A DNA stretch of 64,000 bases from Candidatus Obscuribacterales bacterium (GCA_020050835.1 JAGVKB010000150.1:1-64000), one strand, 5' to 3'. Counted from the first letter of the stretch, positions 35,003 to 49,066 are shown. Numbers and translations are program-made. The notes: a model not told the origin generated them from the sequence alone.

Positions 35003-35243
35003 TGCCAGTGGCCCCTCAGATGAAGTCAACGCCAGACATCATCCCCAATGTAAAGGCAAACTCAATCAGAGAGCCTTGCTTAGTAAATTCCTAGCCGAGG
35101 GATAATGCTTAAACGGCACTATACAGAGCCTTTGTGGCAGGATCGTGGCAGCGCGGCGAAAGGTAATATAATCTGGACTTTCGAACTCCTGCCGTCTCCT
35201 CCCTAGTAGGATCGCGTAGGTTACCCTTTCAACTGGAGCGCGG

Positions 35244-36923
35244 TTGTCTACGACCCTCATACAAGACCAGCCCGTCCGACCAGCCCAACAATCAGGACGG
35301 TCGAGAGCTTCGAGTTGTCTTTGGGCGGCAATAGTAATTACAGTGATCGCCGGAGTGGTACTTCGTTTCGTTAACTTAGACCGTAAAGTCTTTTGGATAG
35401 ATGAAGCTCACTATTCCATCATTGCCAGCGGGCATAGGTACACAGACTTTCAAGACGCCTTGTATGACGGTCACGTCTTCAGCGTTGCAGAGTTGAAATC
35501 CTATCTGAGACCAGAACCAGCAAGTGGCATTCGAGAAGTACTAAGTGCGAAGGCGCAGGATGCGAAGCACACTCCGTTTTCTTACCTTCTCTACAACTGG
35601 TGGGGAAACTGGCAAGGCTTCGACGTGTGCTCGTTGCGATTGCTGACTGCAATCTTGAGTCTTCTGGCCCTACCATTCTTGTATTGGCTATCACTCGAGT
35701 TATTCGAATCGCAGATTGTGTCGGCAATCTACGTCGCATTGATAGCGGCATCACCGTTGCACTACTTATATGCTCAGGAAGCCAGGGGCTACTACCTCTG
35801 GTGTCTAATTACCGCACTGACAGGCGTTCTGCAGCTGCGGGCCTTTCGACTCCGGAAGAATTCCGCGTGGCTAAGCTACTCAGCAGCAGTTGCTTTCGGT
35901 CTTTACTCATTCCTCCTCTCTTGCCTGGTCACCGCGGCCCAGCTGGTTTATTCAATTTACAGGCAAGAGTTCGAAGGCAATCGCTCGTTGACCCGGTGGC
36001 TGGGCTCAGTAGCACTGGCACTCATCGCATTTTCACCCTGGCTTTTCGTGCTGATTAAAAACTGGAACCATACCTTGCATGCCTGGTCCTGGGTAGAGAA
36101 GAAGTTTGACGCAGCTACGTACGCAATGCACTGGCTGGGCAACTTCGGACTCTTATTTTACGACTTGAATTTACCCAGATCTGACCCCTCAGTGCTGCTG
36201 GCCGGACTGACCGCTTTGTTGCTTACAATTTGCGCGATCGCTTTCCTCTGGCATGGACAACGTCGGTCCACTTTTGTATTTGTGGTTCTTCTGATTGCAA
36301 GCACTGCGCTCCCGCTCCTTTGCCTAGATCTATTGTTTGGGGGAAGAAGAGCACTGACAATGCGGTACTTAATGCCATCCTGGCTCGGAATCGAGCTTGC
36401 AATTGCCCACCTGCTGGCTCAGCTATGTATCAACCGCGCTTACCTTGCGCGGCAAATCGGGCTTGCCCTAATCACCGCCATCATAATTGTTGGAATAGGC
36501 TCCTGTATTTATTGCACGCAGGCCTTCACCTGGTGGCACAAGGTTGAGGGACAAGAAATGCTTGACGTTGCCGAAAGGATAAATTCCCGACGATCTCCAC
36601 TTCTCTTGATCGATAAGGCTTGGTGCCTGAGCCCGGGCCGAGTGGCCGCGCTCGGGAATCTGCTAACCGCCAGGGCAAAAATTGCAATCGTAGCTGGCAG
36701 CGCTGATCCGAATATCCCGGACGGATACGAAGATGTTTTTCTCTTTCACATGCCAGAAAGTTACGTTTCAAAGCTGCGCTCGAAGAACAACCGAGCGCTC
36801 AGCCGAGACGCCAAACTCGGTGACAGCCTGTGGTTGGCACGCAGCCCACACAGCAATCCCAGCTCAAGTCCATCAAGCCTTCGATTACCCGAGCAGCCAT
36901 TAACTGGGGTCGGCAAGCGATAG
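35244..36923 (+). CDS. GT39/ArnT-like membrane glycosyltransferase, copy 1
   Basis: 559 residues with about eleven membrane helices. The extracytoplasmic F-W-I-D-E-A motif (near residue 51) after the first helix carries the D-E pair expected of GT-C polyprenyl-phosphate sugar transferases, and Y-A-Q-E-A-R-G-Y follows helices four and five as in the PMT/ArnT superfamily. Members move a sugar from a lipid carrier to a lipid, glycan or protein on the outer face of the membrane. The start is a TTG with GGAG five bases before it. Copy 2 follows directly. Acceptor and donor cannot be read from sequence. Confidence 0.85.
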   Translation: MSTTLIQDQPVRPAQQSGRSRASSCLWAAIVITVIAGVVLRFVNLDRKVFWIDEAHYSIIASGHRYTDFQDALYDGHVFSVAELKSYLRPEPASGIREVLSAKAQDAKHTPFSYLLYNWWGNWQGFDVCSLRLLTAILSLLALPFLYWLSLELFESQIVSAIYVALIAASPLHYLYAQEARGYYLWCLITALTGVLQLRAFRLRKNSAWLSYSAAVAFGLYSFLLSCLVTAAQLVYSIYRQEFEGNRSLTRWLGSVALALIAFSPWLFVLIKNWNHTLHAWSWVEKKFDAATYAMHWLGNFGLLFYDLNLPRSDPSVLLAGLTALLLTICAIAFLWHGQRRSTFVFVVLLIASTALPLLCLDLLFGGRRALTMRYLMPSWLGIELAIAHLLAQLCINRAYLARQIGLALITAIIIVGIGSCIYCTQAFTWWHKVEGQEMLDVAERINSRRSPLLLIDKAWCLSPGRVAALGNLLTARAKIAIVAGSADPNIPDGYEDVFLFHMPESYVSKLRSKNNRALSRDAKLGDSLWLARSPHSNPSSSPSSLRLPEQPLTGVGKR

Positions 36924-37042
36924 ATTATAATGGTCGAATTCATTTCTCTCCGGCTCTCAGAGCCGCGCCTTCGACCGTTACAGTCGAACCATCCGGGTTA
37001 TCTAAGTCTGAGTATTTTGTAGAACAGCTCTCCGAGTGTATT

Positions 37043-38659
37043 TTGTCAAAAGTTTCGGAAGAACATGCCATCACCAGCCGACCGGGTACCGCCAGTCCGG
37101 AAAAGACTCAGCGGCTCGCTTGGTGGGCGATAGCCTTGATTGTGGCAACCGGAGTAATCATTCGTTTCGTCAATCTGGAACACAAAGCATACTGGATCGA
37201 TGAAGCATACACTCTCATTTGCGCGTCCGGACACACCTGTTCCAGCTTGCGAGAGCGTTATTGCGACGGGCATGTTTTTTCAGCCGGTGAGTTGCGAACC
37301 TACATGCAGGTGACACGCGAAATTGACGACACCGGCGTGATTGCTCACCTTTCCGAGGACGCGAAGCACTGCCCATTATTCTTTCTACTTACTCGCCACT
37401 GGGCACAGACTTTCGGCAGCAGCGACGGAAGTCTGAGGTTGCTGCCTGCCTTAATAAGCTTACTAATCTTTCCGGCAATCTTCTGGCTCTGCCGGGAGCT
37501 GTTTCAATCGAGCTACACCGGCGGCATCGCAATGGCGTTGTGCGCAGTTTCTCCACTACACTTCCTGTGGGCACAAGAAGCAAGAAATTACAGCCTCTGG
37601 ACAGTAATCATAATCGTTTCAAGCGCCGTCTTACTTAGAGCAATGCGAGCTTCCAGAATGAAAGCCTGGTTTGCTTATACTCTGATCACTAGTTTGGGTT
37701 TCTATTCCTACCTACTGTCAGTTTTCGTGACCGGCGCTCAGGCTTTATACGTACTTGCAATGCGACGAAAGACTGCAGCCTGCCTGATCTCGATCGCGAT
37801 TGCAGCGTTGTCTTTCGCTCCGTGGTTGGCGATTGTTTCAACCAACTGGGACAGAACCAAAAGAGCCTGGTCCTGGGTGGAAGATCCCGTGACCTTACAC
37901 GAGTTTGTCGGCACCTGGTGTCGCAACCTCAGCCTGCCATTCTTTGATGTAAACGCCGGCTCTCATGCCCCATGGCAGATCGTGCCCAATCTGCTTTGCA
38001 CTGGTCTGGTTGCTGCTGCTGTCATTTATCTCTGCCGAAACACTCAAAAACAAGTCTGGCTCTTTGTTCTGCTCTTAATGACCAGCACTACCTTGCCACT
38101 GCTTGCCGAAGACCTTCTCAGCGGAGGCAGACGCGTTCTGATGGTCCGGTACCTTATCCCATTATGGCTAGGCATACAGCTTTGCGTTGCCTTTCTGCTT
38201 GCAAGCAAAACGGTCTCCCCGGCAGCACCCAGGCGTAAACTCTGGCTGTGCCTGGCATCGGCTTTGATTGGTGCCGGTCTTGTTTCCTGCATAGTTTGCA
38301 GCCAATCTTCATTCTGGTGGAACAAACACCAGGGAAAAGAGATGTCCGAAACAGCCAATCAACTCAATCAATCTCACTCCGCAATCTTGTTAGCCAGCAA
38401 CGAGTGGAGCAAAAGCGCTGGTTCGCTGATCGCCCTGGCAAAGATGCTCACACCCGATACCAAGATGGCAATTATCTCGGACAAAGATGCACCGGAAATT
38501 CCAACCGGATACAAGACGATTTTTTTGTACCATCTGCCCAAAAATTCCATCGAAAAACTCAGGGGAAACGGTAACTACACCTTCAAATACCATCGAGACT
38601 TGAAGGACGTTCTCTGGATAGCAGAACTCAAAGATGCCGGTCGAGCTGTTAAGAATTGA
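37043..38659 (+). CDS. GT39/ArnT-like membrane glycosyltransferase, copy 2
   Basis: A tandem paralogue of the preceding gene, aligning from the first helix to the end: Y-W-I-D-E-A, D-G-H-V-F-S-A-G-E-L, W-A-Q-E-A-R-N-Y-S-L-W, L-S-G-G-R-R and Q-G-K-E-M all have counterparts at the same spacing. The frame is open back to a GTG at 36830 that overlaps copy 1, but residues before 37043 have no counterpart in copy 1. A TTG at 37043 would give the same short N-terminus before the first helix (538 residues), so I prefer it, although its ribosome site is weak. The pair lies just upstream of the pilin-like array, which could supply a substrate; that link is inference. Confidence 0.82.
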   Translation: MSKVSEEHAITSRPGTASPEKTQRLAWWAIALIVATGVIIRFVNLEHKAYWIDEAYTLICASGHTCSSLRERYCDGHVFSAGELRTYMQVTREIDDTGVIAHLSEDAKHCPLFFLLTRHWAQTFGSSDGSLRLLPALISLLIFPAIFWLCRELFQSSYTGGIAMALCAVSPLHFLWAQEARNYSLWTVIIIVSSAVLLRAMRASRMKAWFAYTLITSLGFYSYLLSVFVTGAQALYVLAMRRKTAACLISIAIAALSFAPWLAIVSTNWDRTKRAWSWVEDPVTLHEFVGTWCRNLSLPFFDVNAGSHAPWQIVPNLLCTGLVAAAVIYLCRNTQKQVWLFVLLLMTSTTLPLLAEDLLSGGRRVLMVRYLIPLWLGIQLCVAFLLASKTVSPAAPRRKLWLCLASALIGAGLVSCIVCSQSSFWWNKHQGKEMSETANQLNQSHSAILLASNEWSKSAGSLIALAKMLTPDTKMAIISDKDAPEIPTGYKTIFLYHLPKNSIEKLRGNGNYTFKYHRDLKDVLWIAELKDAGRAVKN

Positions 38660-38796: not shown

Positions 38797-39300
38797 ATGA
38801 AAAACATCATACTAGGCTCGGTTGGACTCATGCTTGCATTGCTACTCAGCGTGCCGGCAAATGCGCAAATGGGCAGCGACGCCTTCTCCGCAGGAGATGC
38901 CGGAACGCAGTCCCGCTCGAACCCGATAACCGGGAGCCAAACTGACACGGTTAACGCCGGTCAGGCTCCTATGTTGCAGGGTGCAACGAACGGCACTATC
39001 GGTCCGCAGGCCGGCGATGCCACAGTTGTGCAGGGTGTTAACACCGCCGGTACGGTCCGGGTGAATAACCTGGCCAACCTTGAAGCATTGCTCAATATCA
39101 TCGCCAACGGGATGGAAATCCTCGGGATAGCCTGGGGTGGTCCAACGATGATCATGGGCTTCATGCACATGGCAGCTGGAACGCAAGATGCGATGAAACG
39201 GGTGCTATTCGGAGCTGCCGGTGTAACCGGCGGCCTCGCAACGCCTGGCTGCATTAACTGGTTGGTGGCATCTTGCCGAGATGCCAACCTGTTCAGTTAA
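38797..39300 (+). CDS. Secreted two-helix pilin-like protein, copy 1
   Basis: 167 residues. A signal peptide (M-K-N-I-I-L through V-P-A-N-A) is followed by a mature part of 144 residues. Its first half is hydrophilic with repeated T-G/N-T motifs; the second half has a hydrophobic helix L-L-N-I-I-A-N-G-M-E-I-L-G-I-A-W, a short loop with the only mature Lys (A-M-K-R), and a second helix ending in P-G-C-I-N-W-L-V-A-S-C-R. Two helices around a short basic loop after a long signal peptide resembles VirB2/TrbC pilins, but the N-terminal extension does not, and no secretion ATPases are nearby. The mature part differs from the other four copies only at the second residue (M for F) and at one A/S position. 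An AGAGGA-type ribosome site precedes the ATG. Confidence 0.8.
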   Translation: MKNIILGSVGLMLALLLSVPANAQMGSDAFSAGDAGTQSRSNPITGSQTDTVNAGQAPMLQGATNGTIGPQAGDATVVQGVNTAGTVRVNNLANLEALLNIIANGMEILGIAWGGPTMIMGFMHMAAGTQDAMKRVLFGAAGVTGGLATPGCINWLVASCRDANLFS

Positions 39301-39334
39301 GCAAGCGAACGTTCAACTCGTAGTAAACCAAAGA

Positions 39335-39368
39335 AAGGGGGCATTCTAAATGCCTCCTTCCTCTTTCG
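39335..39368 (+). terminator. Terminator-like hairpin after pilin-like copy 1
   Basis: GGGGGCATT and AATGCCTCC pair with one G-T wobble around a CTA loop, followed by TTCCTCTTTC. The T-run is interrupted, so termination may be partial. Confidence 0.45.
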
Positions 39369-39429
39369 GGAAGAATCAGCGATGTGCCGCTTCTCGCTGG
39401 GAGCGAGCCACAAAGGAGGATTGAACGAT

Positions 39430-39525
39430 GTGAAGAACATCATAATCGGGGCGGCAGGGCCCATTCTTACGCCACTGCTCAGCTTTCCAACTAATGCACA
39501 CGACACATTCGAGGAAAGGATATGA
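39430..39525 (+). pseudogene. Signal-peptide-only relic of the pilin-like family, 31 codons
   Basis: GTG-initiated frame reading M-K-N-I-I-I-G-A-A-G-P-I-L-T-P-L-L-S-F-P-T-N-A-H, plainly related to the signal peptide of copy 1 (M-K-N-I-I-L-G-S-V-G...V-P-A-N-A), and then only seven more residues before TGA. A strong AAAGGAGG site lies upstream. The TGA overlaps the ATG of the next gene as ATGA, so it could still be translated and couple into that gene. An ATG immediately ahead is followed at once by TGA, suggesting that a two-base insertion damaged the original start. Confidence 0.6.
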
Positions 39526-40013
39526 ACTGCACAACGTTCTGCTTAGGACTGATAGTTGCTTTTCTGTTGAGTACTCTCCCGTCCAATGCGAACAAGGACG
39601 CTGTCACCCGCTCATCACAAAATGTCAAAGCTGAGCACGTTCCAACACCCGAAACGTTTTCAAACGCCTTTTTCGCAGAAGATGGGTCGCCGCCTATCGA
39701 TGGACCCATTCCAATGCTTAAAGGTGTCCACGGAGGCGTAATTGGTCCGAAAGTAGATAGTGTCCCTGTCCCTGAGACTCGGCTAGAGTTGCCGAAGAAA
39801 CTGTCCTACCCCATGGATTGTGTCCTCGAGCTACTAGGTATCATCAGTGGCAGTGTATTGGCAATCATAGGACTTAAGCGCTTGAAAGAACGCAAAATAG
39901 GCTGGTTTTCAATATTGCTGCTCGCGTTGACTTGTGCACTTACCGGACCAGCAGCGCCTTTCATCTACGAGTGGGGTGTGGCAACCTTTGATGCTGCCGG
40001 CAAATTTCAATGA
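39522..40013 (+). CDS. Diverged pilin-like paralogue A
   Basis: 163 residues with a signal peptide (cleavage likely after S-N-A) and two C-terminal hydrophobic helices. The central G-P-I-P-M-L-K-G-V-H-G-G-V-I-G-P-K corresponds to G-Q-A-P-M-L-Q-G-A-T-N-G-T-I-G-P-Q of the five conserved copies, so it belongs to the same family, but the helices are strongly diverged and the paired C-terminal cysteines are absent. The start overlaps the relic before it by ATGA, and GAGGAAAGG lies just upstream. It may be decaying or may have a changed role. Confidence 0.65.
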   Translation: MNCTTFCLGLIVAFLLSTLPSNANKDAVTRSSQNVKAEHVPTPETFSNAFFAEDGSPPIDGPIPMLKGVHGGVIGPKVDSVPVPETRLELPKKLSYPMDCVLELLGIISGSVLAIIGLKRLKERKIGWFSILLLALTCALTGPAAPFIYEWGVATFDAAGKFQ

Positions 40014-40065
40014 TTCAGCGGTCTCCTGAACGACTGATAGCAATTTTGTTGTTATGCAGGATTTC

Positions 40066-40088
40066 GGTGGGTACTGTTGAACTAGTGC
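40066..40088 (+). repeat. Short upstream repeat, copy 1
   Basis: A segment containing TGTTGAACTAGT lies upstream of diverged paralogue B. A nearly identical segment is found at 40810-40834 before the FliB-like gene. It may be a shared promoter or regulator site, or a trace of duplication. Confidence 0.4.
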
Positions 40089-40210
40089 CGTTTTACACAA
40101 GAACGATCGAATGACTTGTGGTGATGGCTGCACTGACAGCCCCACTGATGCAAAAACAAATGAGGCGCTTCGTCTCACTCGGGGAGGCGAAATTGAGAGG
40201 ACTGGACAAA

Positions 40211-40696
40211 GTGAAAAACACCGCAATCGGCGTAGCTGGACTCAGCCTTACACTACTACTCAGCAATCCAGCAAGTGCACAAGACGCAATCGATAAAGAA
40301 GTTGGTGGAGTGAAAACCGGTTCGGAATCGGTCTATAGCCGGGCTGATTCGGTTCCCGCCAATGGAGATCCGTTGATTAAGCCAAACGGAGTTATCGGTC
40401 CGCCAACTTATGAGCCGACAGTTGTGCAAGCCATAAAGACCGCCCGAATTGTACGGCCCAGCGCAGTTGAAGCATGGCGCCAAATCATCGCCTTTGGCCT
40501 TGCCATCCTGGGGATTCTAGGGATCTCTGGTGGCGGTATCTTGCTCTTTAGGGGCTTTCAGCGCAAGCTGGAGGGACTGCCAGGAGCGATGAAATTTATG
40601 CTGTCAGGAGCATTCATTGCACTTGCCGGACTCGCAATGTCCGGATTTGTCTACTTACTGCTGACAGTTGACATGGACTGCCACCTCATCGAATAG
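40211..40696 (+). CDS. Diverged pilin-like paralogue B
   Basis: 161 residues from a GTG with GAGAGG upstream; the frame is open further back but this start gives a signal peptide M-K-N-T-A-I-G-V-A-G...N-P-A-S-A like that of copy 1. N-G-V-I-G-P and T-V-V-Q-A-I-K-T-A align with N-G-T-I-G-P and T-V-V-Q-G-V-N-T-A of the conserved family. Two helices follow around a basic loop (F-Q-R-K-L-E-G-L-P-G-A-M-K), giving the clearest VirB2-like layout in the cluster. The cysteine pair of the conserved copies is missing. Confidence 0.7.
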   Translation: MKNTAIGVAGLSLTLLLSNPASAQDAIDKEVGGVKTGSESVYSRADSVPANGDPLIKPNGVIGPPTYEPTVVQAIKTARIVRPSAVEAWRQIIAFGLAILGILGISGGGILLFRGFQRKLEGLPGAMKFMLSGAFIALAGLAMSGFVYLLLTVDMDCHLIE

Positions 40697-40710
40697 AGTC
40701 AAGTATTTCC

Positions 40711-40766
40711 CGCAACTAAGTTGATGGTGGCATCCTGCCGCAAGACCAACCTGTTCAATAAAGCAG
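40711..40766 (+). pseudogene. Relic of the 3' end of a pilin-like gene
   Basis: Just after paralogue B, about 55 bases (including TGGTGGCATCCTGCCGCAAG and CCAACCTGTTCA) match the last codons of copy 1 (W-L-V-A-S-C-R-D-A-N-L-F-S) with a few substitutions and a damaged stop. There is no open frame leading into it. It suggests that paralogue B was inserted into, or recombined with, a further copy of the conserved gene. Confidence 0.65.
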
Positions 40767-40809
40767 GTGATTGGATTCAATCCCGGTCCACTTTGTTAGC
40801 TACGTAGTC

Positions 40810-40834
40810 AGTGGGGTATTGTTGAACTAGTACT
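40810..40834 (+). repeat. Short upstream repeat, copy 2
   Basis: Second copy of the segment with TGTTGAACTAGT (here ATTGTTGAACTAGTAC), 17 bases before the FliB-like gene; compare 40066-40088. Confidence 0.4.
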
Positions 40835-40850
40835 GTCGAGAGGGCTAGCT

Positions 40851-42050
40851 TTGGTGACGCAAGAACTTCAATTGCATATTCCCGACGGAATCAACTACGA
40901 ATGCACCGGCTGCGGCAAGTGTTGCACCGGCTGGACGGTGCCGATGACTCCAGATGATTATGACCGGGTCTCGTCGGTAGATTGGGGGAAGGAATCGCCA
41001 AGATACGCAGGGCAGGAGCTCTTTCGCGAGCTTAAGGACTATGAGAAGAAGGGCACGCCTTACTCTCATGCTATTCGCCCGGGCGGGGACGGTTACTGCC
41101 CTTTCCTGGTCGACAATTTGTGCTTTGTGCACGGGCAGTATGGCTCGAAGTTCAAACCATCGATGTGCCAGCTCTTTCCTTATTGCTTCAACGAGACCCC
41201 GTCTGGAATCTATGCCACCGTCTCATTCGTAAGCATGGGCGTGCTCTACAACTCGGGCAAGTCGCTTACAGAGCAGCGAGATTACCTCGAAGAAAAGCTC
41301 AAAGCGTTTCAAGAGCTCTATCCGGATCATCATCCTAACTGGTCCGACCTCAAATTGGCAGTCGGAATGCCGATGACCTGGGATGACTACCTTGTGCACG
41401 AAAAGCAGCTCGTCTCGCTGTTACAAGACCGTTCGGTCTCAATCGAAGAACGCATGCTGAAAGGATCTGATTATCTTTGCTCCAAACTCGCAGCAGGTAG
41501 TCCGGCACCCAGCATGCCGACCGAACCTTGCCTCAAGAAATTAGACAAGCATTTACTGGTCGCCCTGCACAAGATGTACTTCCCCTCAAAGCCACTGGGA
41601 AAGGGCGAGTGCGATTTCAACAACCTGAGATTCTTCTACCAGTTTCTTTATCAATCACCCAAGCTGGCATTCCCAACCCAGAAATTCAGCTTCGAAGAGT
41701 TGCAGGAGATTGACTGGCCATCAGGCGATCCGGAGATTGAAGATCTTCTCTACCGTTATTTCTTCTCGCGTATTTTCGGAAAGCTATACTTTGGAGCGGG
41801 CTTTGGACAGCTTAGCCTGATCACCGGATTCCACCACTTGATACTAATACTGGGATTAGTGAAGCTACAGGCCAAAGCCTGGGCTCTCACTAGAGAAGCA
41901 CCAATAGTAAGTTTGTTGGATGTAATAACTACTGTCCGAGAACTGGAGAAGCGACTTGGTGAGTCGCGGCTTGGCGGATACGAAGCTGCGGTTTGGGAAT
42001 TGTTGATGCAGAGCCGCTCTCGAGTCAGGCGAGTGCTTGCTTCTGTGTAA
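40851..42050 (+). CDS. FliB/YkgJ-like cysteine-cluster protein, possible protein lysine N-methylase
   Basis: 399 residues, cytoplasmic. The N-terminus has C-x-x-C-x-x-C-C (Cys18, 21, 24, 25), then C-P-F-L (Cys83), C-F-V-H-G (Cys91) and C-Q-L-F-P-Y-C (Cys106, 112). This pattern is that of the YkgJ/UPF0153 metal-cluster family, which includes FliB, the enzyme linked to lysine methylation of flagellin. The rest is helical and unrecognised. The start is TTG, or GTG one codon later, with GAGAGGG upstream. It sits inside the pilin-like array and no flagellar gene is visible, so a role in modifying the array's products is possible; their mature part has a single lysine. That role is inference. Confidence 0.6.
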   Translation: MVTQELQLHIPDGINYECTGCGKCCTGWTVPMTPDDYDRVSSVDWGKESPRYAGQELFRELKDYEKKGTPYSHAIRPGGDGYCPFLVDNLCFVHGQYGSKFKPSMCQLFPYCFNETPSGIYATVSFVSMGVLYNSGKSLTEQRDYLEEKLKAFQELYPDHHPNWSDLKLAVGMPMTWDDYLVHEKQLVSLLQDRSVSIEERMLKGSDYLCSKLAAGSPAPSMPTEPCLKKLDKHLLVALHKMYFPSKPLGKGECDFNNLRFFYQFLYQSPKLAFPTQKFSFEELQEIDWPSGDPEIEDLLYRYFFSRIFGKLYFGAGFGQLSLITGFHHLILILGLVKLQAKAWALTREAPIVSLLDVITTVRELEKRLGESRLGGYEAAVWELLMQSRSRVRRVLASV

Positions 42051-42403
42051 GTAATTCCTGTCAGAATTGACAACAAGGAGGAAGATCTCCTTTTAGATGA
42101 AGATCTCCTTCTAGAAGTAAGAGGATTTCGAATTAGTAGTCCGCGACGGCCTACTACGATCTATTCCTCTACAAAGTTAAAGGACTCGAAACCTTTATGC
42201 TTCAACAGTTTCGACGGAATCGCTCGACGACTCCGGACAACTCCGAACTAAATTTGTAGTCCAGGCAACAAAATTTTAGTTGACTTGTGTCCGGGGTTGG
42301 TGTAACCTCTGCCCATGATTTCAAGGGGGCGCACTTACTTAGCGCAACCGGGTTCTTTTTTTACTACTTAATACTTATATATTCAGTTGGCAGGAGGTTC
42401 TGC
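42051..42403. other. Gene-free 353 bp before pilin-like copy 2
   Basis: Holds the promoter at 42280-42308 and a leader of about 90 bases. Upstream are short AGAAG/GATCTCC repeats (42078-42115) with GAGGAAGATCTCCTTTT-type self-complementary sequence that could terminate the preceding gene. No open frame is convincing. Confidence 0.5.
42280..42308 (+). promoter_or_regulatory. Promoter of pilin-like copy 2
   Basis: TTGACT (42280-42285), 17 bases, then TAACCT (42303-42308), followed by CTGCCCAT. The same arrangement, TTGACT-17-TAAYCT-N-TGCCCAT, precedes copy 4, in otherwise different sequence. Confidence 0.6.
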
Positions 42404-42922
42404 ATGAATACGTTTTCGAAACATACTATGGCCGCTCTCGGAACATCTTTCGCAATGGCTCTCTTCTTAGGAGCTCCTGCGAACGCTCAATTCGGAAGCG
42501 ACGCTTTCTCCGCTGGTGATGCCGGTACGCAATCGCGCTCGAACCCGATCACCGGCTCCCAAACTGACACGGTCAATGCCGGTCAGTCTCCAATGCTTCA
42601 AGGCGCTACCAACGGTACCATCGGACCGCAAGCCGGTGATGCCACAGTCGTCCAGGGCGTAAACACTGCCGGCACGGTACGTGTAAACAACTTGGCCAAC
42701 TTGGAAGCGTTGTTGAACATCATCGCCAACGGGATGGAAATCCTCGGAATCGCATGGGGTGGTCCGACGATGATCATGGGCTTTATGCACATGGCCGCTG
42801 GTACGCAAGATGCTATGAAGCGTGTTCTGTTCGGTGCTGCTGGTGTTACCGGTGGTTTGGCAACTCCTGGTTGCATCAACTGGCTCGTTGCCTCCTGCCG
42901 CGACGCCAACCTGTTCAGCTAA
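42404..42922 (+). CDS. Secreted two-helix pilin-like protein, copy 2
   Basis: 172 residues from an ATG with AGGAGG six bases ahead (42392-42397); an upstream extension of the frame is ignored for that reason. The signal peptide (M-N-T-F-S-K-H-T through A-P-A-N-A) is unlike that of copy 1, while the mature 144 residues beginning Q-F-G-S-D-A-F-S are identical to copies 3 and 4. Cys residues sit eight apart in the last helix and could form a disulfide. The coding DNA differs from the other copies at many third positions. Confidence 0.85.
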   Translation: MNTFSKHTMAALGTSFAMALFLGAPANAQFGSDAFSAGDAGTQSRSNPITGSQTDTVNAGQSPMLQGATNGTIGPQAGDATVVQGVNTAGTVRVNNLANLEALLNIIANGMEILGIAWGGPTMIMGFMHMAAGTQDAMKRVLFGAAGVTGGLATPGCINWLVASCRDANLFS

Positions 42923-42952
42923 GCAGACAGACAGTTTCAATCAGTACTCGAA

Positions 42953-42982
42953 GAGGGGAGCGCAAGCTCCTCTCTTCTTTTT
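42953..42982 (+). terminator. Intrinsic terminator of pilin-like copy 2
   Basis: GAGGGGAGC and GCTCCTCTC form a nine-pair stem around a GCAA-containing loop, followed by TTCTTTTT. Copy 3 has nearly the same hairpin at the same place. Confidence 0.85.
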
Positions 42983-43365
42983 ACCGGTTCAAATGCTTCC
43001 ACTGCTCTCTCAAGAACACAGCTCGACCCGAATTCCTTTGGTGGATTTAGTTCACAACTTTTGAACAGAAATTGCCGGACACTAAGACGATTTTCATGGG
43101 CTTCCAGTTTCCAAGCAGCCATTGAGCCACTTTTGGCACAATTCCTCTACGAATTTGCCACAAATGAGTGGTTGAATATGCATCGTTAGGGATTTAGAGA
43201 AAGCCGAAATGGCTTTTTTGGATCACTTAATGTGAAACTAGATGTTATGACCCACTTATGTCACACCGCTATGTTTCAATGATTACTATCGAACGGTTGG
43301 CACTTAGCTAAACCAATTTCTTGACCACTTACTATTTTAATCAGGCGTTGCCCAGGAGGCATTTT
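42983..43365. other. Gene-free stretch between pilin-like copies 2 and 3
   Basis: Contains a second terminator at 43200-43219, far from the first, so an undescribed short transcript may run through here. The leader of copy 3 includes CGGTTGGCACTT (about 43293-43305), shared with the leader of copy 4. No convincing open frame. Confidence 0.45.
43200..43219 (+). terminator. Second terminator-like hairpin in the gap
   Basis: AAAGCC pairs with GGCTTT around GAAAT and is followed by TTT. It is 218 bases beyond the copy 2 terminator and no gene ends nearby. Confidence 0.6.
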
Positions 43366-43890
43366 ATGCGTATCTCACTTACCAATCTTCTTTCATCAGT
43401 TGCAATGACTGCTGCAGTCGTCGCCGGACTTTCGTTTGCATCCCCGGCCTACGCTCAGTTCGGGTCTGATGCTTTCTCCGCTGGTGATGCGGGAACCCAA
43501 TCACGTTCCAACCCAATTACAGGCAGTCAAACTGACACCGTCAATGCCGGTCAATCACCGATGTTGCAAGGTGCCACCAACGGTACGATCGGACCGCAAG
43601 CCGGCGATGCTACTGTCGTTCAGGGCGTAAACACTGCTGGTACGGTTCGGGTAAATAACTTGGCTAACTTGGAAGCATTGTTGAACATCATCGCCAACGG
43701 GATGGAAATCCTCGGTATCGCCTGGGGTGGACCGACAATGATCATGGGCTTCATGCACATGGCTGCCGGCACCCAAGACGCTATGAAGCGGGTTCTGTTC
43801 GGCGCCGCTGGTGTTACCGGTGGATTGGCAACACCCGGTTGCATCAACTGGCTCGTTGCTTCTTGCCGCGACGCCAACCTGTTCAGCTAA
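43366..43890 (+). CDS. Secreted two-helix pilin-like protein, copy 3
   Basis: 174 residues from an ATG with AGGAGG seven bases ahead. The signal peptide (M-R-I-S-L-T-N-L-L-S through S-P-A-Y-A) closely resembles that of copy 4 but not copies 1, 2 and 5. The mature protein is identical to copies 2 and 4. The 3' untranslated region and terminator match copy 2, whereas the signal peptide matches copy 4, so the gene is a mosaic, as expected after recombination among copies. Confidence 0.85.
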   Translation: MRISLTNLLSSVAMTAAVVAGLSFASPAYAQFGSDAFSAGDAGTQSRSNPITGSQTDTVNAGQSPMLQGATNGTIGPQAGDATVVQGVNTAGTVRVNNLANLEALLNIIANGMEILGIAWGGPTMIMGFMHMAAGTQDAMKRVLFGAAGVTGGLATPGCINWLVASCRDANLFS

Positions 43891-43919
43891 GCAACCAGAC
43901 GGCTTCAACAAGTAATCGA

Positions 43920-43953
43920 GAGGGGAGCGTTTGCTCCCCTCTTCTTCGTTTTT
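43920..43953 (+). terminator. Intrinsic terminator of pilin-like copy 3
   Basis: GAGGGGAGC pairs perfectly with GCTCCCCTC around GTTT, followed by TTCTTCGTTTTT. Confidence 0.88.
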
Positions 43954-44111
43954 CGTCGCTCCACCCATTAATGCATCCAGCCCAGACTAATTGCCCATGA
44001 AATCATCCTTCATTACCGCCCGGCTGACCGGATTTGGACCAAATTGCGCCATTTGAATGACCGTACAGATCCTTAGACTCATAACAGTCGAGTCAATCGC
44101 AGGGACAAACT

Positions 44112-44690
44112 ATGAATAAGCTTCAAAATGGGATCGATCCCTCAATCAATTTCATTGACGCTCTTTACTATGAAGAAACACACTTACCAATGCGTTCGCA
44201 ATACCTGGCTGTACAGCAGATTCTCGAGTTTGCGTGGTTGGGTCTGGGAATGTGCGGCGACAAGAATCAAGACGGCAGGCTTGAGTATCACGAGCTTCTG
44301 GACTACTGCGAGCACATGCATAGCATGTTCAATTTAGACTCGGATGTGCTCGACGGATTGAAAGTTCTTCTCAAGAAATACTCCTGCTTGGCTGGAGAAA
44401 AGCGATATCTAGACGATCAGGATCTATTCAATTACAGAGATTTGCTGCTCAAGCAACTCTGCATTGAGGGATTATCGAGAGCCTCACTGGTGCCATACAT
44501 CGCTGCCGATACCAGCGAATTGCTAGAGATTGAACTGGTTAGAAACTCCAATTTACAGCCGCTGATTGCACATATAAACGAAGAGCTCGAGTCCCGCCAG
44601 GCTACTGCCAGAATAGACGCTTCTGGAGCGCCGGTTTACAGCAACGCTTCCTGCAACAGCCAAGCCGAGCCACAACTACGCGCCGCATAG
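44112..44690 (+). CDS. EF-hand protein within the pilin-like array
   Basis: 192 residues, no signal peptide, acidic and helical. Residues 50-61 read D-K-N-Q-D-G-R-L-E-Y-H-E, a canonical calcium-binding EF-hand loop with Asp at 1, Asn at 3, Asp at 5, Gly at 6 and Glu at 12; the flanking helices fit. A second, degenerate hand may follow around residues 90-105 (S-C-L-A-G-E-K-R-Y-L-D-D) but lacks the ligands. The ATG follows AGGGAC. It stands alone between copies 3 and 4, and its partner is not known. Confidence 0.7.
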   Translation: MNKLQNGIDPSINFIDALYYEETHLPMRSQYLAVQQILEFAWLGLGMCGDKNQDGRLEYHELLDYCEHMHSMFNLDSDVLDGLKVLLKKYSCLAGEKRYLDDQDLFNYRDLLLKQLCIEGLSRASLVPYIAADTSELLEIELVRNSNLQPLIAHINEELESRQATARIDASGAPVYSNASCNSQAEPQLRAA

Positions 44691-44803
44691 GTTTCCTTTT
44701 TCGGACACATAGTTTCAGCTGTACTATTGCAGTTGGGGCAGATGCAATCAGCTCCTACTGCTTTTTGCGGCGGCCGCAGATTCTTTCCAAAGAATGACTG
44801 CTT

Positions 44804-45052
44804 CTAGATAAGTAGGTTGCTATCAACCGTCGTATTTGGGGCGGTCTGCAACGGTAGAACTGCGTCTATCTTTTCAATCCGGTCTGTTCCTACGGGCGGA
44901 CTGGCATCAAATGTCTCATCACGCCTCATCCGGCTTTGCATGCTTCTCAAGAACTGACGTGCTAGCACTTTATTTATGCAACTCTGCAACGTGTACTTTT
45001 CACTCTTAACTTTCGCTGGTAAGCTCTCAGCCGCTTCTTTCCTTTCTGTCAT
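44804..45052 (-). CDS. Small hypothetical basic protein
   Basis: 82 residues starting with M-T-E-R-K-E-A-A-E-S. It is included because the ATG has a strong GGAGGC site at ideal distance on the minus strand (45061-45066), and the composition (charged, few hydrophobics, one helix rich in Lys/Arg) is protein-like. It is the only minus-strand gene inside the array. No family recognised. An extension of the frame to 45100 lacks a ribosome site. Confidence 0.5.
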   Translation of the reverse strand: MTERKEAAESLPAKVKSEKYTLQSCINKVLARQFLRSMQSRMRRDETFDASPPVGTDRIEKIDAVLPLQTAPNTTVDSNLLI

Positions 45053-45582
45053 TAAAACTAGCCTCCAGGCATATCTGCCACAACACAACGCACCAGCCAT
45101 GGCAAATTGTATCTATCCTTGCTAGCTCAGATCTTCGACATAAGAAGTACCAGGCAGCTCAGCAACGCAGCTGACAGAATGCTTCTACTGCACTAAACGG
45201 CCATGGATTTAGCGCTGCTGATTCCCAATTTAGATAGAATCAGGAACAGAATACCTTTCAGGCAGCTCCTTCCTCGCCTTCCAACTTGGAGACCCTCTCC
45301 TCCAAATATAGAGCCACCTTAGCGCCGTGCCACCAGGATCACCAAACATATTTCCTGCCGCTCCGATGGGAAATTCCGGGTCACTCCGGATATACTTCGG
45401 AACCGGGGTTAGAGAAGCGGCAAACATCTCCTGAAAAAACTCCGAAAATGTATTCCAGCTTACAAAATCACGCTTGACTTCAACCTGAAGTTACCGTAAT
45501 CTATGCCCATCGGTTGGCACTTTCGCCACACCTAGTTGGAAGACTTACTACAAAATTGGCGTTCATACCCAGGAGGTTCTAC
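45053..45582. other. Gap before pilin-like copy 4
   Basis: Holds the promoter at 45474-45502 and the leader of copy 4. A minus-strand open frame at 45230-45427 (65 residues with R-W-L-Y-I-W) looks partly protein-like but has no usable ribosome site; I do not call it. Confidence 0.5.
45474..45502 (+). promoter_or_regulatory. Promoter of pilin-like copy 4
   Basis: TTGACT (45474-45479), 17 bases, TAATCT (45497-45502), then ATGCCCATCGGTTGGCACTT. The first part matches the copy 2 promoter and the last part matches the copy 3 leader. Confidence 0.6.
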
Positions 45583-46107
45583 ATGCGCATCTCTGTTACC
45601 AGTCTTTTGTCTCAAATTTCGGTAGCCGCAGTAATTGTTGCTGGTCTATCGATCGCTTCTCCCGCATACGCTCAATTCGGCAGCGATGCATTCTCGGCTG
45701 GTGATGCAGGAACGCAATCCCGCTCCAACCCGATTACAGGCAGCCAGACAGACACAGTCAACGCCGGTCAATCGCCGATGTTGCAAGGTGCCACCAACGG
45801 TACCATCGGTCCCCAAGCTGGTGACGCGACTGTTGTTCAAGGCGTTAACACCGCTGGCACAGTGCGCGTAAACAACTTGGCTAACTTAGAAGCTTTGCTC
45901 AACATCATTGCTAACGGTATGGAAATCCTCGGTATCGCCTGGGGTGGACCGACCATGATCATGGGCTTCATGCACATGGCTGCCGGCACGCAAGATGCTA
46001 TGAAGCGCGTACTCTTCGGAGCTGCAGGTGTCACCGGTGGTTTGGCAACACCCGGTTGTATCAACTGGCTCGTCGCCTCCTGCCGCGATGCCAACCTGTT
46101 CAGCTAA
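45583..46107 (+). CDS. Secreted two-helix pilin-like protein, copy 4
   Basis: 174 residues from an ATG with AGGAGG six bases ahead (45571-45576). Signal peptide M-R-I-S-V-T-S-L-L-S through S-P-A-Y-A, similar to copy 3; mature part identical to copies 2 and 3. Followed by the terminator at 46144-46165, which belongs to a different type from those of copies 2 and 3. Confidence 0.85.
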   Translation: MRISVTSLLSQISVAAVIVAGLSIASPAYAQFGSDAFSAGDAGTQSRSNPITGSQTDTVNAGQSPMLQGATNGTIGPQAGDATVVQGVNTAGTVRVNNLANLEALLNIIANGMEILGIAWGGPTMIMGFMHMAAGTQDAMKRVLFGAAGVTGGLATPGCINWLVASCRDANLFS

Positions 46108-46118
46108 GCGGACAAACT

Positions 46119-46146
46119 TTTCCCCCGCCAACGCCAGCCAGAGACC
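46119..46146. repeat. 28 bp repeat, copy 1
   Basis: A 28-base sequence (beginning TTTCCCCCGCCAACG and ending CAGAGACC) is repeated exactly at 47273-47300. Both lead into a terminator hairpin, and the TPR gene lies between them, so that gene is bracketed by the repeats. The start, TTTCCCCCG, also occurs after copy 5 (47992-48000). Confidence 0.85.
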
Positions 46147-46165
46147 TCCCGGAAGGGGGGTTTTT
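46144..46165 (+). terminator. Intrinsic terminator of pilin-like copy 4
   Basis: ACCTCCC pairs with GGGGGGT around GGAA and runs into TTTTT. Confidence 0.85.
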
Positions 46166-46268
46166 GGTCTTCGTGTCACATATTTTTCACGACATCGTGT
46201 TGAAATCTACTCAGTCGCAGTTCAGCTTCGCAAAGTCGGAATTGTCCGAAACTTCATAATTGGGCAGT

Positions 46269-47240
46269 ATGAAAGCAATTACTAAACTAACAATCGCATT
46301 TACCGTTCTTACTCTGACGTTTTGCCCATCAGCAGAAACCAGAGCTGAATCCGAAATAGCCACAGAGCAAGCGGCAGCGGATCAAGTCGCGTTAGATCAA
46401 GTACAAGTACCGGCAGAGCAAGTTGCATCGGAGCAAGTCACAACCAATCAGGTAGTGGCAACAAATCAAGTGGCAACAGCACAGCCGATAGCCAGTTCGG
46501 CACCACCAGCAATGCCCGTTGAACCAAAGATTTTCCCACCAGCGGCAGATAGTGCTTACTACCTCGCCGGGCAATACGTTTTAAGTGGAAGGTACCAGGA
46601 AGCGATCTCTTATTTCGATCAAGCGATCAAACTCGCTGCCAACGGGGCCGCCCACTTTCGGATCGCCGACGCATTCTATAGTCGCGGCAACGCACACGTG
46701 TACCTTGGACAATCCGATGCGGCTCTTTGTGACTACTCAAAAGCAATTAGTCTGGATGCCAATTACGCTCTTGCCTATTACATGAGGGGTCAGATTTATC
46801 AGGGTCGCTCTGAATTCCAAAAGGCCATCCCGGACTTCAAAAAGGCAATTGAGATCAATTCAACCTTCGCCCTTGCCTTTGGAGGGCTGGGACTCGCCTA
46901 CCACGGTCTCGGCGAGAATGAGCGAGCCGTGGAGTATTGCAGCAATTCAATCAGCCTGGATAGTCAGAGCGCCTGGTTCTACGATATTCGGGCGCAAGCA
47001 TATAAGGATCTAGGCAACTATGAAAAGTATGCCGAAGATCTCAGTCAAGAGATTCAGCTGCTGTCTCAACCAGGTACCAATCAGATAGCCGCCGATCCTC
47101 GCAGCCTGCTTGCGCCAGCTTATTTCAACCGCGGACAGGCATACCAAAAGCTCGGCAGAAGCGAGCTTGCTCAAAAAGACCTAAATAAAGCAAAAGAGCT
47201 AGGTTACCCGGGAGATTCCAAGAAGACCGGAGCCTCCTAA
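46269..47240 (+). CDS. Secreted TPR protein within the pilin-like array
   Basis: 323 residues. Signal peptide (M-K-A-I-T-K-L through A-E-T-R-A), then a low-complexity stretch in which E-Q-V, D-Q-V and N-Q-V recur about eight times (residues 30-75), then about five TPR units (for example Y-S-R-G-N-A-H-V-Y-L-G, A-Y-Y-M-R-G-Q-I-Y-Q-G, Y-F-N-R-G-Q-A-Y-Q-K-L-G). TPR proteins in the envelope act as assembly scaffolds. The ATG at 46269 is preferred over the TTG three codons upstream because it directly begins a signal peptide; the ribosome site is weak. It is bracketed by the 28 bp repeats. Confidence 0.82.
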   Translation: MKAITKLTIAFTVLTLTFCPSAETRAESEIATEQAAADQVALDQVQVPAEQVASEQVTTNQVVATNQVATAQPIASSAPPAMPVEPKIFPPAADSAYYLAGQYVLSGRYQEAISYFDQAIKLAANGAAHFRIADAFYSRGNAHVYLGQSDAALCDYSKAISLDANYALAYYMRGQIYQGRSEFQKAIPDFKKAIEINSTFALAFGGLGLAYHGLGENERAVEYCSNSISLDSQSAWFYDIRAQAYKDLGNYEKYAEDLSQEIQLLSQPGTNQIAADPRSLLAPAYFNRGQAYQKLGRSELAQKDLNKAKELGYPGDSKKTGAS

Positions 47241-47272
47241 CTACCCAAAAGAGAGCCTACTCTCATTCCGAC

Positions 47273-47300
47273 TTTCCCCCGCCAACGCCAGCCAGAGACC
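47273..47300. repeat. 28 bp repeat, copy 2
   Basis: Exact second copy of the 28-base sequence at 46119-46146. Confidence 0.85.
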
Positions 47301-47320
47301 GCCGCAAGGCGGTTTTTGGT
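47298..47320 (+). terminator. Intrinsic terminator of the TPR gene
   Basis: ACCGCC pairs with GGCGGT around GCAA and is followed by TTTTT. It has the same plan as the copy 4 terminator but compensating stem changes, with the preceding 28 bases identical. Confidence 0.85.
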
Positions 47321-47456
47321 ATCTCTTAGAAATCCTTCAGCCGTTTAATTTTTCGACTTCCCCTAATTACTCCCAGGGCCTCGTAGGACACACAGAGGCT
47401 CGAAAGAAGAAGAGCCAAATTACTAAGGGATGGACCATTTAATAAGGAGAGTTCCA

Positions 47457-47984
47457 ATGTTTACTAAGGTTTTTGGTCAAACGAGAAAAGTCTGGTTGCT
47501 TTCATTAGCTTTCTGTCTCCTACCGCTCACTTGCGGAGCTGCACATGCTCAATTCGGCAGCGATGCTTTCTCAGCCGGTGATGCAGGAACACAATCTCGC
47601 TCAAACCCAATCACAGGCAGCCAGACCGATACAGTAAATGCCGGTCAAGCACCGATGTTGCAAGGTGCCACCAACGGTACCATCGGTCCCCAAGCTGGTG
47701 ACGCTACCGTGGTGCAGGGTGTAAATACAGCCGGTACGGTTCGAGTCAACAACCTCGCCAACCTCGAAGCGTTGTTAAATATCATCGCCAACGGGATGGA
47801 AATCCTCGGTATCGCCTGGGGTGGACCGACCATGATCATGGGCTTCATGCACATGGCTGCCGGCACGCAAGATGCTATGAAGCGAGTTCTGTTCGGCGCC
47901 GCTGGTGTCACCGGTGGTTTGGCAACACCCGGCTGCATCAACTGGCTCGTCGCCTCCTGCCGCGATGCCAACCTGTTCAGCTAA
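47457..47984 (+). CDS. Secreted two-helix pilin-like protein, copy 5
   Basis: 175 residues from an ATG with AAGGAGA six bases ahead. The signal peptide (M-F-T-K-V-F-G-Q-T-R-K through G-A-A-H-A) is unlike all others; the mature part is identical to copies 2-4 except Ala in place of Ser in the Q-A-P-M-L segment, as in copy 1. The promoter does not show the TTGACT-17-TAAYCT pattern, so this copy may be regulated differently. Confidence 0.85.
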   Translation: MFTKVFGQTRKVWLLSLAFCLLPLTCGAAHAQFGSDAFSAGDAGTQSRSNPITGSQTDTVNAGQAPMLQGATNGTIGPQAGDATVVQGVNTAGTVRVNNLANLEALLNIIANGMEILGIAWGGPTMIMGFMHMAAGTQDAMKRVLFGAAGVTGGLATPGCINWLVASCRDANLFS

Positions 47985-48298: not shown

Positions 48299-49066
48299 AT
48301 GCTGACTCCCGAACAGCTTGAACGTTATCAGAATCAGCTATCCCTGCCCGGGATGGGCGAGCAGGCGCAGATTAAGTTGTCCAATTCGCGCGTTCTGGTG
48401 GCCGGTCTCTCCGGCTCCGGAGCGATTGCGGCTCAGCTGCTCGCTGTCTCTGGCGTCGGTACTATCGGTCTGCTGGACGATTCAGTGATCGCACTGGCGG
48501 ACCTTCACAGAGACATTCTGTCCAGCAGCGACGAGACAGGCAAAAGTCGGATAGAGTCAGCCAAAAGAAGGCTCAATCACTTGAACCCGGACTGTATGGT
48601 AGAGCTTCACGAATTACAGCTCGATGCTCACAATGCGGAAGAACTATTGACACCTTATCATTTGATCCTGGACGGGCTCGACGATTGGCAAAAGAAATTA
48701 CTCGCCAGCGACACCGCCATGCATCTAAACATTCCAATGATTCACTGCGGAATCACCGGCTTTCAGTTTCAAGTTTTTTCGATGGTTCCGGGAAGATCTG
48801 CTTGCTTGCGCTGCCTGTTTCATCAGCTCGGCAGAGAAGATCTGTCGCGCCAGGACAAACCAGCCATCAACTTTGGTCCGGCGGCCACAATGGCCGGATC
48901 GCTGCAGGCCTCCGAAGCGCTCCACATCATAGCCGAGTCGGGCGTAACCGGCTGCGACGAGTTGATTCAATTCGACTGCTTGCGCCGAGAATTTTATACG
49001 GTGCGCGAGCTCGGTCCTCGCGCTGATTGTCCAGACTGCGGCCGCACCACTAATCGGAATCAGTAA
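48299..49066 (+). CDS. ThiF/MoeB/HesA-type adenylyltransferase
   Basis: E1-like enzyme of 255 residues that would adenylate the C-terminus of a ThiS/MoaD-type sulfur carrier. It has the R-Y-x-x-Q-L-x-L-P-G-M-G-x-x-x-Q start, the nucleotide-binding V-L-V-A-G-L-S-G-S-G (32-41), L-D-D-x-x-I-x-L-x-D-L-H-R-D (59-72), and two zinc pairs C-L-R-C (169/172) and C-P-D-C (244/247). The usual G-x-G-G-L-G is altered to G-L-S-G-S-G. It has no rhodanese domain. No thi or moa gene is beside it, so the pathway is not determined. A GAGGAG site lies 12 bases upstream. The 3' end overlaps the convergent gene by 17 bases. Confidence 0.85.
   Translation: MLTPEQLERYQNQLSLPGMGEQAQIKLSNSRVLVAGLSGSGAIAAQLLAVSGVGTIGLLDDSVIALADLHRDILSSSDETGKSRIESAKRRLNHLNPDCMVELHELQLDAHNAEELLTPYHLILDGLDDWQKKLLASDTAMHLNIPMIHCGITGFQFQVFSMVPGRSACLRCLFHQLGREDLSRQDKPAINFGPAATMAGSLQASEALHIIAESGVTGCDELIQFDCLRREFYTVRELGPRADCPDCGRTTNRNQ

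Follow-up and report, generated by a model that had tools for sequence, protein, structure and literature searches.

Silently diverged genes encode a near-identical exported two-helix protein, a possible envelope scaffold, in the Obscuribacterales

Five open reading frames (ORFs) that encode virtually the same exported protein were found within 9.2 kb of a 64,000-nucleotide stretch of DNA (hereafter the window) from Candidatus Obscuribacterales bacterium (GCA_020050835.1 JAGVKB010000150.1:1-64000). All five are on one strand and have a mature product of 144 amino acids (aa), which differs among the copies at residue 2 (M/F) and residue 33 (A/S) and nowhere else, as the original prediction, made from the sequence alone, had stated. 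The genes themselves are strongly diverged at silent sites, and the protein or a module of it is found in all genomes searched of the order Obscuribacterales, a little-studied, uncultured group of non-photosynthetic relatives of cyanobacteria. Tentatively, the protein is read here as a self-associating envelope scaffold, specific to the order and produced in large amounts, and proteins fused to the same module would co-assemble with it; this is a serious possibility, short of an even chance.

The DNA of the five mature regions differs at 49-83 of 429 nucleotides and 45-77 of 143 codons, nearly always silently (pS 0.43-0.73, dS 0.64 to about 2.7); dN among the copies reaches 0.025, mostly because paths that join the two boxes of serine codons are averaged. 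The signal peptides, read by eye from the sequence after ORF starts were refined by Shine-Dalgarno sites, are unrelated to each other, as is the intergenic and flanking DNA. Because signal peptides and flanks are unrelated and the codons differ silently, assembly collapse, duplication of a single gene and chance are all excluded; the five copies are neither an assembly artefact of one gene, a refutation that had been considered from the start, nor a recent duplication. Several copies do lie at contig ends in assemblies, as might be expected of an artefact or a mobile repeat, but silent divergence up to saturation, unrelated flanks and syntenic arrays in independent genomes leave these explanations scarcely credible. 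A phage or mobile origin was also rejected, as no relative of the array protein was found on viral contigs and it has no PHROG match. A sixth copy, ~84% identical, is on another contig (C13) of the same genome.

Same-order genomes have 1-42 matches each to the array protein or module, fused and partial ones counted, with best E values of 1e-22 to 1e-91; a few have fused or fragmentary matches only. The expectation that related genomes would carry the same array is borne out: arrays like that of the window are present in nearly all Obscuribacterales genomes searched, at one conserved locus. Array copies lie between a gene for a CxxCxxCC protein and a ThiF gene in 15/15 loci with both flanks, and in the window copy 1 and both diverged paralogues fall outside this interval. 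The protein or its module was not found in any of 21 genomes from other families of the class, nor did a profile detect it in another 385 genomes of the phylum. Records with the family are mostly metagenome-assembled genomes titled Candidatus Obscuribacterales or Melainabacteria. A few are titled Actinobacteria, Proteobacteria or Chloroflexi, at least two of which (L093, L109) agree in the places of their matches with same-family genomes (G003, G007).

Over the C-terminal ~81 residues, 45 groups of loci (each standing for a single genome where this could be assigned) have a median identity of 0.926, compared with 0.34-0.70 in flanking proteins. AlphaFold2 (AF2; 59 sequences, single chain) predicts helices at residues 61-104 and 109-143 that form a two-helix hairpin with a short basic loop (pLDDT 84-93 over residues 71-140); residues 1-60 are of low confidence (pLDDT about 55 or below). 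The hairpin helices are rich in small residues, and the outer ends are invariant or nearly so (TVRVNNLANLEALLNIIAN and PGxINWLVASxRDANLF). The ~60-residue tail is rich in Gly, Ser, Thr, Gln and Asn and ends in the motif APxLQGATNGTIGP...NTAGTVRVNN. An N-glycosylation sequon (NGT) in this motif was rejected, since several carriers lack the Asn. No credible Pfam match was obtained for 59 family members with hmmscan up to E 10, array proteins have no NCBIfam match and no sequence relative among solved structures, and literature searches returned nothing on the family; the earlier statement that no known system could be recognised thus holds. A fold search with Foldseek and VIA-align gave mainly generic helical hairpins and bundles, with no pilin among the matches listed, which does not imply a novel fold.

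VirB2/TrbC/TraA pilins have a signal peptide, a two-helix hairpin, a short basic loop and small-residue-rich helices. The array protein is like these families (PF04956, PF18895) in all four respects, and a relationship with VirB2/TrbC had been suggested from the signal peptide, the hydrophilic half and the two helices around a short basic loop. The exported two-helix layout with its basic loop is supported by the AF2 hairpin and the signal-peptide-like N-termini; the relationship is not, since no VirB2/TrbC or T4SS_pilin match is found in the 59 family members. The array protein also differs from these pilins in its exposed ~60-residue tail and in the fusion of its module to VIT/vWA proteins. 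Its own genome has no TrbC (PF04956) match, no T4SS_pilin (PF18895) match over the cut-off and none at the array, and no VirB4 or VirB6, which are found in 2/53 and 1/53 genomes of the order, respectively. The sole genome with both has its own VirB2-like gene beside VirB3/VirB4, without profile similarity to the array protein. A type IV secretion system (T4SS) pilus is rejected on the missing machinery, the lack of a family match and the separate, dissimilar pilin, and it is very improbable that the array protein is a pilin of the VirB2/TrbC type, whether for conjugation or for type IV secretion. Of the suggested "pilus or surface layer", a multicopy surface or envelope protein is what remains supported. 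A rare VirB-type T4SS locus of the order (L182, G002:C1:66000-84000) contains a 120-aa VirB2-like gene at 10426-10785.

In ~25 arrays, close within-genome copies differ by 0-2 of 111 residues and mostly by 0.2-0.7 at fourfold sites; more distant copies differ by up to 17 residues. Three congeneric genomes share four syntenic positions, at which signal-peptide identity is 0.76 for orthologous vs 0.56 for non-orthologous pairs. Their mature regions differ little within a genome (1.6% aa, fourfold 0.38), and between genomes they differ by 8.3% aa for orthologous and non-orthologous copies alike, with fourfold differences of 0.50 and 0.52, respectively (expected ceiling near 0.66). As mature regions are homogenised within each genome while signal peptides follow orthology, evolution in these three genomes is concerted and confined to the mature region. 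One pair with a fourfold difference of 0.06 looks recently converted. Third positions cluster arrays by genome in 9/14; since they group most arrays in this way, full homogenisation of the protein without homogenisation of the DNA is not claimed. In the window, the silent sites of copy 1 place it elsewhere, near saturation relative to the other copies, although its tail is the same as theirs; copies from different genera that are this far apart at silent sites have tail identities of 0.03-0.77. Because silent sites are saturated, it is not firmly claimed that selection for identity acts in addition to gene conversion. Between genera the N-terminal tail is specific to the species, and among close copies within a genome it is nearly uniform. 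Multicopy genes kept alike by gene conversion include psbA in cyanobacteria and amoCAB in nitrifiers. The array resembles these in having paralogues homogenised per genome with diverged flanks, but differs in that silent sites are strongly diverged though the mature protein is virtually identical, and in that homogenisation covers the mature region but leaves out the signal peptide. The array copies offer a natural test of how paralogues are kept alike by gene conversion and selection.

Each copy is probably transcribed independently, to judge from promoter-like and terminator-like sequences. A ribosome site could be recognised in 113 copies of the order; 69 of these carry a promoter-like TTGAC-N16-18-TANNNT ~115 nt before the start (1.6 expected) and 86 a TTACTA element ~40 nt before it (9.2 expected). 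Since both patterns were derived from these same upstream regions, the expected values do not test them independently. The promoter-like sequences were not flagged by a general promoter scan with a stricter consensus. TTACTA is likewise at -40 in the sixth copy; it is absent from that place in the four VIT genes and the alpha-2-macroglobulin gene tested, and a TPR gene has one at -5. No Rfam match to a structured RNA was found in the array region.

The module or the motif APxLQGATNGTIGP recurs in large VIT/vWA surface proteins, TPR proteins and the bait regions of five alpha-2-macroglobulins (A2Ms), which is new here. In the window's own genome, four VIT/vWA-type proteins carry it: three match TIGR04477, TIGR03788, VIT or VWA, and the fourth (L007) has a similar layout without a library match. 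Module or motif is also present in a TPR protein, near the N-terminus, and in a small Cys-rich membrane protein, and the motif lies between PF07703 (E 2e-20) and PF00207 (E 6e-21) in an A2M. In relatives, the module with its two transmembrane (TM) segments forms the C-terminus of many full-length VIT-type proteins, and others keep the motif alone before a single TM. Fused VIT/vWA proteins retain the hairpin outer ends while the membrane segments have diverged. In VIT/vWA proteins the motif separates the ectodomain from the membrane anchor, and elsewhere it stands at a soluble C-terminus. In one VIT protein (L009, L115:5145-8048) the array C-terminal tail (INWLVASSRDANLF) is upstream of a further tail-plus-module, as if fused with a tandem array.

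The fused relatives resemble VIT/vWA proteins of the TIGR04477 XrtN system and the TIGR03788 marine sortase target, all below curated cut-offs, and one adjoins an exosortase gene and has a PEP-CTERM-like tail. They differ in that most end in the two-TM module, not a single-TM sorting tail, and no more than 29/53 genomes of the order have an exosortase. An exosortase gene (PF09721, 4e-29) directly follows L011, with a second such pair in L164 judged by position, and the VIT relative L113 ends VPESDT-TM-RNRLRVRKV beside an exosortase. Array proteins themselves end ...NWLVASCRDANLFS after the second helix, and do not have the PEP motif, single TM and basic end of exosortase substrates. An exosortase (PEP-CTERM) substrate was rejected, as exosortase is patchy and only one branch of VIT relatives lies beside it.

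Taken together, the array may encode a subunit, made in bulk, of an envelope structure that is peculiar to the Obscuribacterales. Every copy would be transcribed singly and exported via a different signal peptide, giving the same mature protein, with an exposed disordered tail of ~60 residues followed by a two-helix hairpin in the membrane. The hairpin outer ends (VRVNNLANLEALLNIIAN and PGxINWLVASxRDANLFS) would meet on the outer side, and neighbouring subunits could pack through their small-residue-rich helices to build a homo-oligomeric scaffold or layer. Co-assembly of VIT/vWA proteins with the same hairpin ends would place their ectodomains on the surface. We infer this topology, self-association, co-assembly and abundance from several lines of evidence: genes that have diverged silently, and that have promoter-like sequences, leaders and ribosome sites of their own, encode the same protein; the family is restricted to the order, with a core far more conserved than the flanking proteins; and VIT/vWA fusions keep the outer ends as their membrane segments diverge. 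The two long predicted helices and the terminator-like stem-loops are also consistent with a scaffold, and homogenisation of the mature region within genomes is expected where subunits must match each other. Several points weigh against this reading. Oligomers, abundance and location of the array protein are deduced indirectly; the AF2 model is of one chain only, with low confidence in the tail (pLDDT about 35-55); and the many copies could be there for dosage and nothing else. In the shortened carriers, namely single-TM VIT proteins, A2Ms and TPR proteins, the motif is kept and the hairpin is not, so that the motif must do something besides taking part in the assembly of hairpins.

A small membrane channel, pore or membrane-stabiliser needed in bulk would also fit a hairpin with small-residue-rich helices and individual promoter-like sequences and leaders. 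Multiple copies would then serve dosage or differential regulation, and fusions would use the hairpin as a mere anchor. However, anchors do not need outer ends that are the same almost letter for letter, and yet in the fusions it is the ends that are kept and the membrane part that varies. Nor would a channel, pore or stabiliser account for the exposed tail and the motif, and this alternative appears unlikely.

The main rival to the scaffold concerns the motif, and the A2Ms bear on it. Four A2Ms (L187, L188, L196, L197) have APxLxGATxGxIG in the bait region, as does L106 of a second subfamily; these five loci belong to several genera, and the remaining A2Ms of the order with a readable bait have baits unrelated to the motif. 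The A2M assignment of L013/L117 is supported by matches to both A2M_BRD and A2M domains. A protease-cleaved structure of the E. coli A2M has been described (PMC4498604). The five loci differ from this bacterial A2M in that their bait motif is common to the organism's own surface proteins; no description of such reuse was found in the abstracts covered. Thus APxLQGATNGTIGP could be a processing site for a protease or transpeptidase: array proteins would be precursors of a species-specific peptide of ~35 residues, which is set free or transferred to another site, the cut would free VIT/vWA ectodomains, and the motif would bait the same protease in A2Ms. The placement of the motif between ectodomain and anchor, in five baits, at a TPR N-terminus and at a soluble C-terminus is consistent with processing, as are the species-specific tail, nearly uniform among close copies, and a His-rich multi-TM family that follows divergent small carriers in operons. 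However, no protease or transpeptidase has the distribution of the array protein or module, present in all genomes of the order searched (exosortase 29/53; His-rich family 28), and ultraconservation of the hairpin is left unexplained. Processing is less than likely, if not to be set aside lightly, and scaffold and processing or bait motif may both hold.

Members of the His-rich family (5-7 TM; ETHT, HF..Q, FFHGxQY and WKLRDP motifs) are encoded directly downstream of divergent small motif-bearing membrane proteins in several genomes (loci L158, L159/L171, L160, L173, L175, L176, L178, L179; in the window's own genome C62:20604-21647, L174). They are found in same-order genomes only, in 28 of them, and three that were scanned have no Pfam or NCBIfam match.

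A wider coat system can be envisaged, if as a rather improbable one. One abundant, concertedly evolving two-TM coat protein would define an exposed motif that was copied into the A2M bait; proteases attacking the coat would be trapped by the cell's own inhibitor, and VIT/vWA proteins would dock via the shared hairpin ends. One motif across coat protein, VIT/vWA proteins and protease-trap baits suggests a testable shared surface logic, and a strikingly conserved exported protein throughout the sampled order has been without family or name.

The features of the array region are listed in the table. Unrelated genes alternate with the copies as had been described, namely a small gene and a TPR gene. 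The two paralogues reported earlier are supported by profile and tblastn; both belonged to the alignment behind the profile, and tblastn with the array protein alone finds both too. The relics reported with them are plausible, from the match listed and from similarity to the array protein that extends beyond the stop of the 40118 paralogue, to ~40759.

Table. Array genes, flanking genes and candidate expression signals in the window.
Feature	Coordinates	Strand	Remarks
Array copy 1	38797..39300	+	167 aa (signal peptide + mature 144 aa)
Plausible relic	39373..39522	+	tblastn to residues 12-62 of 40118 paralogue, 45% over 51 aa, E 3e-6
Diverged paralogue	39522..40013	+	163 aa; profile E 1.2e-39; tblastn with array protein E 0.001
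Diverged paralogue	40118..40696	+	192-aa ORF; tblastn with array protein 34%, E 6e-15; profile E 4e-43
CxxCxxCC (PF03692) protein	40851..42050	+	Conserved array flank in relatives
Promoter-like sequence before copy 2	42280..42308	+	TTGACT-N17-TAACCT
TTACTA, 5' leader of copy 2	42361..42366	+	
Array copy 2	42404..42922	+	Signal peptide MNTFSKHTMAALGTSFAMALFLGAPANAQ
Intrinsic terminator-like stem-loop after copy 2	42950..42977	+	
TTACTA, 5' leader of copy 3	43329..43334	+	
Array copy 3	43366..43890	+	
Intrinsic terminator-like stem-loop after copy 3	43918..43943	+	
Small unrelated gene between copies	44112..44690	+	Weak EF-hand similarity, below cut-off
Promoter-like sequence before copy 4	45474..45502	+	TTGACT-N17-TAATCT
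TTACTA, 5' leader of copy 4	45545..45550	+	
Array copy 4	45583..46107	+	
Intrinsic terminator-like stem-loop after copy 4	46145..46160	+	
TPR protein, unrelated, between copies	46260..47240	+	
TTACTA, 5' leader of copy 5	47420..47425	+	
Array copy 5	47457..47984	+	
ThiF-family gene	48299..49066	+	Conserved downstream flank of array

Elsewhere in the window, tandem membrane glycosyltransferase-like genes lie just upstream of the array (35244-36923 and 36830-38659, + strand; the first matches PMT_2, 6e-06), without relatives in the other array loci compared. A 1350-aa protein with many 'LLKMLG'-like helical repeats (30977-35029, - strand) also has no relatives in the array loci compared. Positions 711-17237 (- strand) are taken up by a Gly-rich ORF of 5508 aa that is filamentous-haemagglutinin-like and whose embedded repeats resemble, by eye, YVTN beta-propeller blades.

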